A stretch of DNA of 45,175 bases from assembly GCA_002753395.1 (NCBI GenBank), contig PEAB01000022.1, positions 1-45,175 on the forward strand, written 5' to 3'. Each line of letters begins with the position of its first letter. The first letter of the stretch is position 1. The position numbers and the translations under genes were made by a program. Source of the DNA: Nitrospirae bacterium MYbinv3. GTDB taxonomy: Bacteria; Nitrospirota; Thermodesulfovibrionia; Thermodesulfovibrionales; Magnetobacteriaceae. This document shows positions 9,670 to 26,087 of the stretch, piece after piece. Below the pieces are notes generated by a model that was not told the DNA's origin, made no database searches, and worked only from the letters and a program-made list of their open reading frames with translations.

Positions 9670-9750
9670 CAAGGGGGCTTGCCCTCTTGCGAGGGGATCT
9701 GAGGGGCAGGTGCGACCTGCAGCGACAAGGGGGCGGTGCGCCCCCCTTCT
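9670..9750 (+). repeat. GC-rich core module forming the 5' leader of the AAA+ gene
   Basis: This stretch starts ggggtcaagggggcttgccc and ends cccccttct directly before the ATG at 9751. It is the same GC-rich module found inside the TIR elements at 20759, 25906, 29502, 34027 and 43175, but no TIRs are visible here. It can fold into strong hairpins (e.g. GGTGCGACCTGC, GGGGGCGGTGCGCCCCCC) next to the start codon, which could dampen translation. Confidence 0.65.
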
Positions 9751-11406
9751 ATGAAACCGCAGTTCATGCCAAAGTGGGCCAGAGAGATCGTCAGATTTAT
9801 GTCCGTTAAACCGCAGTTCATGCTCTGGGGGAACGTCTACGACGTCTATCCGATGCAACTCAAGGACGGCGCCATCACTACCCTCAAGATCACAGACTAC
9901 CTCAAGACCCTCCTCAAGGAAAACGACTACAGCCTGATCCTCGCCTACGAACCCCTCTACGGCCTCAAACTCCTCGACGGCGACCCAGAGACATTAAAAA
10001 AAACCACCAAAGAACAGATAAAACCCGACACGCCCCTCATCGCCACACCTGTCAGGATGGCCGAACTTGCAGAACTCCTGACCACATCAAAAGAGGCCAG
10101 CAGCGCCATCATCCTGAACTTTGCCTCAAGGATTGCCGACATAGCGCCAACAGACATGCAGGAGTTCTTCTACCGGATGTTCAGACTGGCACACAGGTCA
10201 ATACCAATAATGACGGGGTCGCCGCCATCTCCACGGTTCAACCTCGTCATCTGGCTGCTGGATAAGGAAAACGACGTACCAGCCTGGTACACCATCGACA
10301 ACGCCCGCATAAGACTCCTGAACATCCCAAAACCCGACTACTTCCTGAGAAAAAACGTCATAGACACCCTGGCCAAGGCCATAGACGGTTTCAAGGACAC
10401 TGAAGAACAAAAAAAACAGGAGGGTCTGTCCCTTTTCATAGACCAAACGAACGGCCTCTTTGCCTCTGAGATCGTATCTATCGTGTCGCTGGCAAGACGA
10501 CAGAAGATACACTTCACACAGATAAGCGACGCCATCAAGGCCTACAAACTCGGCATAGTAGAAAACCCGTGGTCAAGGCTCGACATGCTAAAGATAGCCG
10601 ACTCAGACAAACTCCTGATCAAGCGGGTCAAGGGACAGACGGATGCCGTGCTCCGCTCCTCAGACATCATCAGGCGCGCCGTGTTCAACCTCTCCGGCTG
10701 TCAGTACTCCAAACACTCACAGCGGCCCAAGGGGGTGCTCTTCTTTGCCGGACCCACGGGTGTTGGCAAAACAGAACTGGCCAAGTCCATCACCGAGCTT
10801 ATCTTTGGCACCGAGACCAGCTACCTGCGCTTTGACATGAGCGAATACGCACAGGAGCACTCAGATCAACGCCTCGTTGGCTCACCGCCTGGATACGTCG
10901 GCTACGATGTCGGCGGGCAGCTAACAAACGCTATTAAAAACAACCCCTTCTGCGTCATACTATTTGACGAAATCGAAAAGGCACACCCCAAAATATTAGA
11001 CATATTCCTGCAAATACTAGACGACGGCAGACTCACCTCCGGCAGGGGCGAGACGGTGTACTTCTCCGAGAGTCTGATCATCTTTACCAGTAACTTGGGC
11101 GTCTACAAACGCGGCCCCAACGGTCAGCGCCTCCAGCGGGTGACTCAGGAGATGCCCTACGACACCATAAACACCCAGATACGGCAGGCCATAGAGGACT
11201 TCTTCAAGTACACCATCGGACGGCCTGAGATACTCAACCGGATAGGGGAGAACATAGTCGTGTTTGATTTTATAAGGCCAGAGGCAGCCTCCTTGATCCT
11301 TAAAAAGATGCTCCAAAACGTCCTGGATAAGATAAGGGACTCCTACAGCATAGACGTTACACTGACGGAGGTGAGGAGGAGGCATACAACAGGCTCGTTG
11401 AGATAA
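9751..11406 (+). CDS. Clp/HSP100-type AAA+ ATPase with degenerate N-terminal AAA-like domain; 3' frameshift
   Basis: ATP-driven unfoldase-like protein. Residues 1-300 look like a degenerate AAA-type domain without a visible Walker A (VKPQFMLWGNVYDVYP, ASSAIILNFASRI). Residues 330-550 are a Clp D2-type module: Walker A GPTGVGKT (about 334-341), FDMSEYAQEHS, pore loop GYVGYDVGG, Walker B VILFDEIEKAHP, sensor IIFTSNLG and arginine-finger region GRPEILNRI. The frame closes early at 11406. The expected D2 small domain continues in the -1 frame to 11594, so a one-base deletion (or error) lies near 11365-11372. The start is uncertain: ATG 9751 abuts a repeat, and GTG 9736 and ATG 9766 are alternatives. 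It leads a unit with a radical-SAM and an FHA protein. Confidence 0.85.
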   Translation: MKPQFMPKWAREIVRFMSVKPQFMLWGNVYDVYPMQLKDGAITTLKITDYLKTLLKENDYSLILAYEPLYGLKLLDGDPETLKKTTKEQIKPDTPLIATPVRMAELAELLTTSKEASSAIILNFASRIADIAPTDMQEFFYRMFRLAHRSIPIMTGSPPSPRFNLVIWLLDKENDVPAWYTIDNARIRLLNIPKPDYFLRKNVIDTLAKAIDGFKDTEEQKKQEGLSLFIDQTNGLFASEIVSIVSLARRQKIHFTQISDAIKAYKLGIVENPWSRLDMLKIADSDKLLIKRVKGQTDAVLRSSDIIRRAVFNLSGCQYSKHSQRPKGVLFFAGPTGVGKTELAKSITELIFGTETSYLRFDMSEYAQEHSDQRLVGSPPGYVGYDVGGQLTNAIKNNPFCVILFDEIEKAHPKILDIFLQILDDGRLTSGRGETVYFSESLIIFTSNLGVYKRGPNGQRLQRVTQEMPYDTINTQIRQAIEDFFKYTIGRPEILNRIGENIVVFDFIRPEAASLILKKMLQNVLDKIRDSYSIDVTLTEVRRRHTTGSLR

Positions 11407-15712: not shown

Positions 15713-16068
15713 GAGGTCATATTCAATATGGCTGCAATAAAAAATGTCTGAACCACGATTTAACGGATTAAGGGATTACCAAGATTAATTAAAGTCTTTT
15801 TGTATCCTCTTTAAAAAGCATGGTAAAAATTTTTATGGTTTCAAGACTATGGATTCCCACTTTCGTGGGAATGACAGTAATGGCCGTTTTCCAAATATGT
15901 CATTCTACAGCCTGTCCCTGGCTTGAACAGGGGTAAACAGGAATCCAGAAAGCGTAAAAGCATAGTTACCATGAAATATAAAGAAGATACGTCTTTTTCC
16001 TGTATATCCTATAATCTGTGTAATCCTAGTTCAGACGATCCCCATGTTTACTTAAGTCTGACATTGCC
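15713..16068. repeat. Family D element, interrupted by a family B element
   Basis: The left part (about 15713-15801) carries GCAATAAAAAATGTCTGAAC and ACGATTTAACGGATTAAG. The right part (15991-16068) carries GTGTAATCCTAGTTCAGACG and ends GACATTGCC. The uninterrupted copy at 19207-19380 has the same order. Its right end overlaps and encodes the C-terminus of the CrtI-like gene. The 15595-15712 gap before it shows no gene. Confidence 0.75.
15802..15990. mobile_element. Family B TIR element (189 bp) with 8-bp target duplication
   Basis: The ends GTATCCTCTTTAAAAAGCAT and ...TTCTTTATATTTCATGG (read from the right end) are inverted. Perfect 8-bp repeats GTCTTTTT flank it at 15794-15801 and 15991-15998. 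The core is the TGTCATTC/GGAATCC hairpin plus CCCTGGCTTGAACAGGGG. It sits inside a family D copy. Confidence 0.88.
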
Positions 16069-17582
16069 AAATTAAAGATACGTTTTTTGAATGACCATCC
16101 ACTATGGCCGGTGTCGTCCCTTATAAGCAGCTCTGAGGCGATTACTGACGATATGCAGATATTTGGCAGGCCGCTTCCTGGATGGGTGCCGCCCCCTACT
16201 ATATAACAATTAGACAGTTCCTCTGAACTGTTGTGAGGTCTGAAATAAAACATCTGGTTCAAATCATGGCTAAGGTTAAACACGGCTCCATTGTATACGT
16301 TGAAACCCCTTTCCCAATCATGGGGTGTTACTGTTTTTTCAACTTCTATATGGTCTTCTATGTCAGTCAGTTCAGTGTTCTTGCGAATAAAGGCCAATAC
16401 CTGTGCTCTAAAATCTTGCTTTATGTTCTCCCAGTTTACCGATGCCTTGTTGTTGGGTACAGGCACGAGTATATAAATAGACGACTTTCCCTCTGGCGCT
16501 AACGTATTGTCGCTGACAACCGGATTGTGAATGTATACAAGGGATGTAGATGAGGGGCTCTTGGTCATTGATATCTCATCCATGTGCGCCTTAAAATCGT
16601 CCCCAAAGACCAAGTTGTGATGCGGTATGTCGTATCTCTTATTGACGCCGAGATATAACATGAAGGTAGAACATGAGTATTGGCGTTTCTGTAAGTCGCT
16701 GTCCGTGTATTTTCTTCTACCGCTTATGAGATTGGACATGGCATAAGCAAAATCCGCATTTATAACGACATAGTCTGAAGCAATCGTGTCACCGTTGTCT
16801 AGCAGAACACCGGCTGCTGTCTTGTTCTTATGTAAGATCTGCCTTACGGGTGAGGATGTGTGGATTGTCCCGCCATACTCCTCAATAACCTTGGCCATCG
16901 CCATCGTCAGTTGACTTAGTCCCCCGATCACATGGTGGATACCCCATTTGTGCTCTATGTAGGAGATCAGGGTATAGGCAGAGGGTGCACGCCACGGCGA
17001 CATCCCTATATATTTTGTCTGAAATGACATCGCTAATATCATCTTCTCATCATCAAAATAACCTTCCAATCTGCTCCGTAGGGTGCTAAGTATGTCCATT
17101 TGCGGCAGGGCCTCTATAAAATGGGGTCTTAAGAAGTCATGCAGGCTGTTGTATGGCACCTTGAAACAACGCTCTATGCGCCTGTATCTGTATTGCTCAA
17201 GCTGCCGGAATCTCAGGTAGTTATCAACCTCAGCAGGGAACAGTCTCTTTATCTCTGCTATCGTCTTATCCACATCCGTGGAAGGGAAGAACTCCGTACC
17301 GTCGTCAAACTTTAACCGATACAATGGGTCAAGTGCCTTTATCTCTACGTAATCTCGTATATTTTTACCGGCCAGTGCAAAAAGCTCCTCCATAAACTCA
17401 GGGAGCATCAAAAACGTTGGCCCAATATCGAAGGTGTAATCGTCAATGATAAGCCTTCCGGTTCTACCTCCGACACGCCCTGCCTTTTCATAAACGGTTA
17501 CGTCATAGCCCTTATACAACAATAACATAGCAGAGGCCAACCCCCCCGGACCAGCCCCTACTACCACAACTTTCTTCTTCAT
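16026..17582 (-). CDS. CrtI-type FAD desaturase / phytoene dehydrogenase-like
   Basis: A 518-residue flavoprotein of the phytoene desaturase family. The N-terminal dinucleotide motif is VVVVGAGPGGLASAMLLLYK followed by KAGRVGGRTGRL. A central membrane-associating substrate region includes DIGPTFLMLP. The C-terminal signature YIVGGGTHPGSGLPN is the CrtI-type second FAD motif. Substrate may be a carotenoid precursor, but no phytoene synthase or other crt gene is in view, so another polyene or a related oxidation remains possible. It starts 3 nt after the peroxiredoxin-like gene. The last 15 or so residues, ending DLSKHGDRLN, are encoded by a dispersed repeat, so the native C-terminus was probably replaced. 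Confidence 0.9.
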   Translation of the reverse strand: MKKKVVVVGAGPGGLASAMLLLYKGYDVTVYEKAGRVGGRTGRLIIDDYTFDIGPTFLMLPEFMEELFALAGKNIRDYVEIKALDPLYRLKFDDGTEFFPSTDVDKTIAEIKRLFPAEVDNYLRFRQLEQYRYRRIERCFKVPYNSLHDFLRPHFIEALPQMDILSTLRSRLEGYFDDEKMILAMSFQTKYIGMSPWRAPSAYTLISYIEHKWGIHHVIGGLSQLTMAMAKVIEEYGGTIHTSSPVRQILHKNKTAAGVLLDNGDTIASDYVVINADFAYAMSNLISGRRKYTDSDLQKRQYSCSTFMLYLGVNKRYDIPHHNLVFGDDFKAHMDEISMTKSPSSTSLVYIHNPVVSDNTLAPEGKSSIYILVPVPNNKASVNWENIKQDFRAQVLAFIRKNTELTDIEDHIEVEKTVTPHDWERGFNVYNGAVFNLSHDLNQMFYFRPHNSSEELSNCYIVGGGTHPGSGLPNICISSVIASELLIRDDTGHSGWSFKKRIFNLAMSDLSKHGDRLN

Positions 17583-17585
17583 ATA

Positions 17586-18137
17586 CTAAGCCCCCTTAGT
17601 AAAGATACGAGATGCCTCCTGTAGGAGTTCAACTGCGGAAGGATAGTCAGCAATATCCCTTGAATAGTGTGCATATCTCACAACTGAATCCTTATCAATT
17701 ATAAACACGCCGGATAATTGAGACACGTCCCCAACAGGCACTCCCGGTATATGTCCCTTTCCTAATGCCCTTAAACCACTGATGAAAACCTTTGGCGATA
17801 CAATATCGGTTATCCCTGCCTTTAAGAGTCCATAGGCCTTGTACAGAGATTTATGCGGATCGCATATTATTTTAAAGGGGAGGTTGTAACTGCTGCGAAA
17901 CGACTCAGCCTGCTTGGGGGTGCCCATGCCTACCAGTATCACCTTTGTACCAAGTGAGTCGAACTGTCCTTTTTCTCTGTGCAACTGCACAGCCTGCTCT
18001 CTGCAAAACGGTCATCCAAAGTGTCGTAAAAAAACAAGCGCTATGTTGTCCTCTTTCCAGAGTTCGCTCAATAGTACCTCGCTGCCATCTGAAAGAAGAA
18101 CCCTTGCATCCGCTGCTGCGTCACTATGCTTTAACAT
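17586..18137 (-). CDS. peroxiredoxin-like (AhpC/TSA, PRX-like2) protein, candidate selenoprotein with in-frame TGA
   Basis: Read from ATG 18137 (AGGGGG just upstream) to the stop at 17586, the gene encodes 183 residues with one in-frame TGA at codon 42 (18014-18012). The surrounding residues are VFLRHFG-U-PFCREQAVQL. In this thioredoxin-fold family the motif is normally GCPFCR, so the TGA stands exactly at the first redox cysteine, giving a U-x-x-C pair (U42, C45). A hairpin with bacterial SECIS geometry follows 19 nt later. Downstream the protein continues with family features (VILVGMGTPKQAESF, GVFIIDKDSVVRYAHYSRDI). It likely reduces peroxides or disulfides in the cytosol. It overlaps no gene and is 3 nt from the desaturase, its operon partner. 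A nonsense mutation is the alternative; intact downstream coding and the hairpin argue against it. Confidence 0.85.
17977..17992 (-). promoter_or_regulatory. bacterial SECIS-like hairpin
   Basis: In the mRNA, CUGUGC-AGUU-GCACAG forms a perfect 6-bp stem with a 4-nt loop. The stem starts 19 nt after the UGA, and the loop carries a G followed by U at positions 2-3, matching the known bacterial SECIS pattern (short apical loop with an early G, located roughly 16-37 nt from the UGA). It lies within the coding sequence, as expected for SelB-dependent recoding. Confidence 0.7.
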
Positions 18138-18201: not shown

Positions 18202-18302
18202 GGTAGTCCTGCACAAGCAGTGGTGACATTAAGCTTAACACCCTCCCCAACCCCTCCCATCAAGGGAGGGGAATTGAATATCACTACCTCTGCAGGACTA
18301 CC
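18202..18302. repeat. Family E element (GGTAGTCCTGCA ends), uninterrupted
   Basis: The ends GGTAGTCCTGCACAAGCAGT and ...CTCTGCAGGACTACC are inverted over about 101 bp, with CCCTCCCCAACCCCTCCCAT and AAGGGAGGGG inside. It is the empty-site version of the copy at 25848-26087, where a family C element has inserted. No clear target duplication flanks it. Confidence 0.75.
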
Positions 18303-18440
18303 AGGGATTATCTGAACAAAGATTAAACGGATGGAAGGATTTGCAGGATATATATTCATAGTCTTGATACATTTTATTTGTTTTGTTACCTAAATCCTGT
18401 CAATCCCTTAATCCGTTAAATCATGGTTCAGACAGTTTTT
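18303..18440. repeat. Family D element, degenerate copy
   Basis: Begins AGGGATTATCTGAACAAAGA and ends with ATCCGTTAAATCATGGTTCA GACA, matching family D in inverted order but with outer ends eroded. From here to the Rieske promoter (18441-18611) I see no gene. Confidence 0.65.
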
Positions 18441-25847: not shown

Positions 25848-26087
25848 GTAGTCCTGCAGAGGTAGTGATATTCAATCCCCCTCCCTTGATGGGAGGGGCT
25901 AGGGGTAATGCTGTTGACTTAAGACTATGAAAATGAATAGGGTGGGCTTTGCCCTCCCTAGACCCACCCACAAGGGGACCAGTCCCCTTGACCCCGTAAA
26001 TGTCAGGCATGATTGCTTAAGTCAACAGCATTAGGGGCTAGGGAAGGGTGTTAAGTTTACTGTCACCACTACTTGTGCAGGACTACC
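25848..26087. repeat. Family E element interrupted by a family C element
   Basis: GTAGTCCTGCAGAGGTAGTG at the left and CACTACTTGTGCAGGACTAC at the right match the reverse complement of the uninterrupted copy (18202-18302) base for base over most of their length. The interruption at 25906-26033 occupies the CTAGGGG/TTGGGG position. Confidence 0.82.
25906..26033. mobile_element. Family C TIR element (128 bp) with about 10-bp target duplication
   Basis: TAATGCTGTTGACTTAAG and CTTAAGTCAACAGCATTA are perfect 18-bp inverts. GGGGCTAGGG occurs at 25895-25904 and 26034-26043, one base off the left end. The core is the GC-rich module in reverse orientation. Confidence 0.85.

Follow-up and report, generated by a model that had tools for sequence, protein, structure and literature searches.

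A TGA-interrupted gene that almost certainly encodes a SelL-related redox selenoprotein, paired with a CrtI-type flavoenzyme gene in a Nitrospirota genome

In the window, by which we mean the whole stretch of 45,175 nucleotides analyzed here (contig PEAB01000022.1 of Nitrospirae bacterium MYbinv3), a minus-strand reading frame for a redox protein is interrupted by one in-frame TGA at codon 42 and is followed directly by a gene for a CrtI-type flavoenzyme. The locus raises the question of whether this TGA ends translation or is read as selenocysteine, and, in the latter case, of what such a protein would do beside that enzyme. A preliminary description, made from the letters of the window, had proposed a peroxiredoxin-like selenoprotein with a U-x-x-C motif and a SECIS hairpin. 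The features considered here are the following.

17586 to 18137, minus strand: gene for the predicted selenoprotein, a SelL-related redox protein of 183 aa with selenocysteine at codon 42 in the motif G-U-P-F-C (NF040769, PF00578, PF13911)
18012 to 18014, minus strand: in-frame TGA, predicted to be read as selenocysteine (TGA in 12/12 family copies, TGC in the homologue from the same order)
18003 to 18005, minus strand: codon TGC for Cys45, the putative resolving cysteine of U-x-x-C (invariant in alignment A1)
17977 to 17992, minus strand: putative SECIS hairpin CUGUGC-AGUU-GCACAG (silent-site conservation, covariation, missing from Cys homologues)
16026 to 17582, minus strand: desaturase-like enzyme of the CrtI family, FAD-dependent and conserved as the operon partner (ORF list, TIGR02734, adjacency)

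The frame runs from an ATG at 18137, with the purine-rich GAAGGGGG a few bases 5' of it, to a TAG stop at 17588-17586, and 141 residues separate that stop from the only in-frame TGA (18014-18012), around which the translated site reads R-H-F-G-U-P-F-C. The coordinates, the intact frame, and the start signal of the preliminary description were thus recovered, as was its expectation that a gene caller would lose the N-terminus and the active site, since the standard ORF list holds only 17586-17990, a product of 134 aa with a GTG start at 17990. Taken alone, that list is what would be seen if the TGA truly ended translation, or had been misread in sequencing, and nothing more than a pseudogene or the 134-aa fragment 3' of it were present. 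However, no active site would be left in the fragment, the residues 5' of the TGA are conserved while their codons vary, and every one of the 12 copies, which come from 11 genomes of the family, has its TGA at this codon. That conservation rules out an error of sequencing, and a fragment or pseudogene is therefore very improbable. An Rfam search around the gene returned chance matches only.

Upstream of the gene lies one of the two copies that the window holds of a G/C-rich element, CCCCTCCCTTGATGGGAGGGG (18203-18316 and 25878-25898); this copy has inverted TGGTAGTCCTGCA-like ends and resembles a small mobile repeat. Elsewhere in the window, an AAA/Clp-type ATPase gene (9736-11406) appears to be frameshifted near its end, with a plausible C-terminus in another frame past approximately position 11390.

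The source genome (G000), which is 96.6% complete, contains the machinery for selenocysteine that the preliminary description had named as the first thing to look for: selA (597.6 bits), selB (378.8 bits against a cut-off of 242), selD (315.8 bits), and a tRNA-SeC with the anticodon TCA. Its selD (L010 1501-2445, G000:C114) carries an in-frame TGA of its own at the usual selenocysteine site, KAAGUGSK, and is a selenoprotein gene too. Furthermore, selA was present in the three Vicinamibacteria/Acidobacteria genomes tested (3/3). A frame that stays open through its TGA might also be explained by decoding of UGA as some other amino acid, through near-cognate suppression or a change of code, with no part for selenium. 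Such decoding is hardly credible in view of this machinery, the cysteine codons that homologues carry at the TGA site, and the covarying hairpin beside it, and a global reassignment is contradicted by the several copies that end in TGA, likely as a true stop overlapping the crtI start. The same terminal TGA had given several orthologues a count of two TGA codons, and their reading as UxxU was rejected on this account.

The gene was searched for in 149 genomes, the source genome included, and was detected in 12, namely 11 of the source family, which together hold the 12 copies, and one (G033) from another family of the same order. Cys45 occupies the second motif position in every family copy (12/12), and the G033 homologue has TGC at the selenocysteine site and no hairpin. 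A wider search added more TGA homologues in Nitrospirota and many in Acidobacteriota, and, as the preliminary description had anticipated, cysteine takes the place of selenocysteine elsewhere, with TGC or TGT at the site in 17 homologues, in which the hairpin signal is missing. Two TGA codons in a UxxU arrangement were seen, among the homologues found, only in Acidobacteriota, where L088, L090, and L104 are candidates for a SelL-type diselenide. On a tree of 56 homologues, about ten changes among UxxC, UxxU, and CxxC are required, and well-supported branches force six or seven of these; selenocysteine and cysteine have therefore been exchanged repeatedly. A search of plasmids returned distant relatives only, at less than 30% identity.

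The hairpin (CTGTGC-AGTT-GCACAG in the DNA, 17992-17977) begins 19 nt past the TGA and has G as its second loop base, exactly as first described, and both its spacing and this G agree with the bacterial SECIS pattern, in which a hairpin with a G in the apical loop stands just after the UGA (PMC1088965). Taken alone, it is only mildly unusual, at about 1%: of the window's 1,695 TGA triplets, 22 are followed by a hairpin with this geometry and a flawless stem of 6 bp or more, and 132 of 20,000 synonymous recodings produce one. The folding energy of the 60-nt hairpin region showed no extra stability over shuffled sequences (z = 0.16). The hairpin is convincing because it is conserved and covaries, not by its geometry alone. 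It is nearly identical in the 12 family copies, where the sole change in the 6-bp stem is a C-to-T substitution that keeps a G-U pair. Its codons include four invariant residues (Ala, Val, Gln, and Leu), each written with a single codon in 12/12 copies; outside the hairpin, 2 of the 56 invariant residues are restricted in this way, and the average there is 2.9 codons per residue. These frozen silent sites show that the RNA is under selection.

Among the wider TGA homologues, the stem recurs in a fixed codon register with other bases, while the AGTT loop that it encloses stays largely constant; examples are GCGGTGC-AGTT-GCACCGC, GTCGCGC-AGTT-GCGCGAC, and TTGCTGC-AGTT-GCAGCAA. Across 37 distinct TGA homologues from Nitrospirota and Acidobacteriota, 76.4% of the stem cells are paired, and double changes occur in all seven pairs (44 double-changed cells). 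The covariation reaches 0.422, a value attained by none of 500 shuffles (0.223 +/- 0.023); these shuffles ignore relatedness, and the better controls are slid stem partners, which gave at most 0.215, and the 17 Cys homologues, in which the identical test found 43.7% of cells paired and no signal. Judged from these comparisons, the hairpin is under selection. About ten Acidobacteriota TGA homologues (L083-L086, L093, L098, L103, L106, L108, and L109) do not fit the common hairpin and may use a different SECIS. The locus thus offers an unusually clear and testable bacterial SECIS, a single hairpin whose stem covaries across two phyla and which is gone where the site is cysteine.

The selenoprotein reading is strongly supported by the machinery, the conservation of the TGA, the Cys homologues, and the selection on the hairpin, and the product of the TGA-interrupted gene is, almost certainly, a complete redox protein whose active site contains selenocysteine. 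SelB and the selenocysteyl-tRNA with anticodon UCA, steered by the hairpin just past the UGA, would place selenocysteine at codon 42, where translation would otherwise end; this insertion under hairpin control is near-certain, supported as far as sequence alone permits. In the AlphaFold model (mean pLDDT of 81, residues 107-135 unreliable, selenocysteine modeled as cysteine), a strand at residues 31-36 is followed by a helix at 43-54, and residue 42 stands right before this helix. Proteins of this fold usually have their catalytic residue there. In a peroxiredoxin/thioredoxin fold of this kind, Sec42 would sit at the helix start and Cys45 one turn further, and the pair would cycle between the selenol/thiol and the selenenylsulfide, a cycle proposed because of the family and the fold. 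We hold with high confidence that selenocysteine insertion is joined to redox cycling at U-x-x-C in a SelL-related redox selenoprotein. In this way, a gene is recovered that ordinary gene callers truncate, at the cost of its active site.

The less expected part of the locus, and its most interesting point, is the pairing with crtI. The crtI-like ORF begins at 17582, 3 nt past the selenoprotein stop, as the preliminary description had reported in calling it an unusual operon partner; the adjacency stands, and the oddity does not, as the CrtI-family flavoenzyme gene lies directly 3' of the selenoprotein gene in 12/12 copies. In several of them, the crtI start overlaps the selenoprotein stop, and the outer neighbors differ among the copies while the pair is kept. 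Among 19 genomes of the family, both genes occur in 11, crtI only in two, the selenoprotein only in none, and neither in six, a co-occurrence with a Fisher p of 0.001 that ignores relatedness. The two genomes with a CrtI-like gene and no detected selenoprotein partner are G009 and G011 (L068 and L065); therefore, the flavoenzyme is not strictly dependent on the selenoprotein. No crtI match was found near family members elsewhere (including Acidobacteriota and G033) within the fetched flanks of 1.5 to 4 kb.

The neighbor might be a true carotenoid desaturase, with the selenoprotein protecting carotenoid synthesis, and it does match the phytoene desaturase family TIGR02734 (470.6 bits against a cut-off of 238.1). 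However, it scores far below every equivalog cut-off for the named carotenoid enzymes, and the phytoene/squalene synthase family SQS_PSY (PF00494) had no match in the source genome or in 20 relatives under a search that was positive in seven control genomes. Because no such synthase was found, we rejected a place for crtI in a carotenoid pathway; the flavoenzyme probably differs from an ordinary carotenoid desaturase, and protection of carotenoid synthesis is improbable.

What the selenoprotein would do for its neighbor is thus a separate matter. The role that we favor is that of a putative thiol(selenol)-disulfide oxidoreductase or peroxide reductase working in support of the CrtI-type flavoenzyme encoded in the same two-gene operon; that it serves this orphan enzyme is a guess, reasoned from the operon, which we hold tentatively. 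The chief rival, with nearly an even chance of being right, is a general peroxide or disulfide reductase that acts directly on neither the flavoenzyme nor its product and whose proximity to crtI reflects shared regulation, for example under oxidative stress. Such a general role is consistent with the Bcp/PrxQ peroxiredoxins as best fold matches, with the family members that lack crtI in their flanks, and with the genomes that hold crtI without the selenoprotein; on the other hand, shared regulation leaves to be explained a pair that stays intact despite changing surroundings and stop and start codons that often overlap, suggesting coupled production. A bolder reading, a dedicated two-gene unit in which the selenol protein recycles or regulates an orphan CrtI-type enzyme acting on a substrate other than phytoene, is a doubtful conjecture. 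If true, it would mean a selenium-dependent modification of lipids or quinones in Nitrospirota of the magnetotactic lineage.

Literature searches returned nothing relevant on a link between selenoproteins and crtI or on the selenoproteins of magnetotactic Nitrospirota, and this constant pairing, seen in relatives of magnetic bacteria, has apparently not been described. A specific partner enzyme is now tied to a poorly understood selenoprotein family, which gives a clue toward its substrate.

It is important to consider how the protein relates to systems already described. The Pfam AhpC-TSA families PF00578 and PF13911 match it, and the top PDB matches in Foldseek are Bcp/PrxQ and AhpE peroxiredoxins, at a TM of about 0.7 by query length; the fold is common to both, but theirs is a peroxidatic T-x-x-C, whereas here the motif is a thioredoxin-like U-x-x-C, and the classical T-x-x-C (or T-x-x-U) is lacking. 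Sequence-profile matches also take in ResA and prostamide/prostaglandin F synthase, and the match to SELENOU/PRXL2 (PDB 9us9, E = 1e-8) spans most of the protein. This likeness, like that to the prostamide/prostaglandin F synthase included in the group, is distant, and the substrate or activity of PRXL2 should not be assumed for the selenoprotein. The peroxiredoxin-like assignment first proposed is made more precise by NF040769, the SelL-related redox proteins.

SelL proper, from aquatic animals and marine bacteria, has two selenocysteines (UxxU) that form a diselenide. The protein described here has UxxC and is not a SelL in the strict sense, although it shares with SelL, a Prx-like protein (PMC2398784), the selenocysteine at the first motif position. 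Published tables already contain selenoproteins of the type "Prx-like thiol:disulfide oxidoreductase", with UxxC as well as UxxU motifs (PMC13188914, PMC9312934), and the kind is therefore known; our protein and the tabulated ones (e.g., WP_010940744.1) are comparable in PF00578 and in the motif types. The selenoprotein belongs to an already known family, NF040769: with 163.7 bits, it passes the curated cut-off of 120 over its full length (residues 8-174 on positions 3-172 of the 173 in the profile), and it has no feature that speaks against membership. Its UxxC, UxxU, and CxxC homologues all score above the same cut-off. Within this family, the pairing with crtI is, among the loci examined, peculiar to this lineage.
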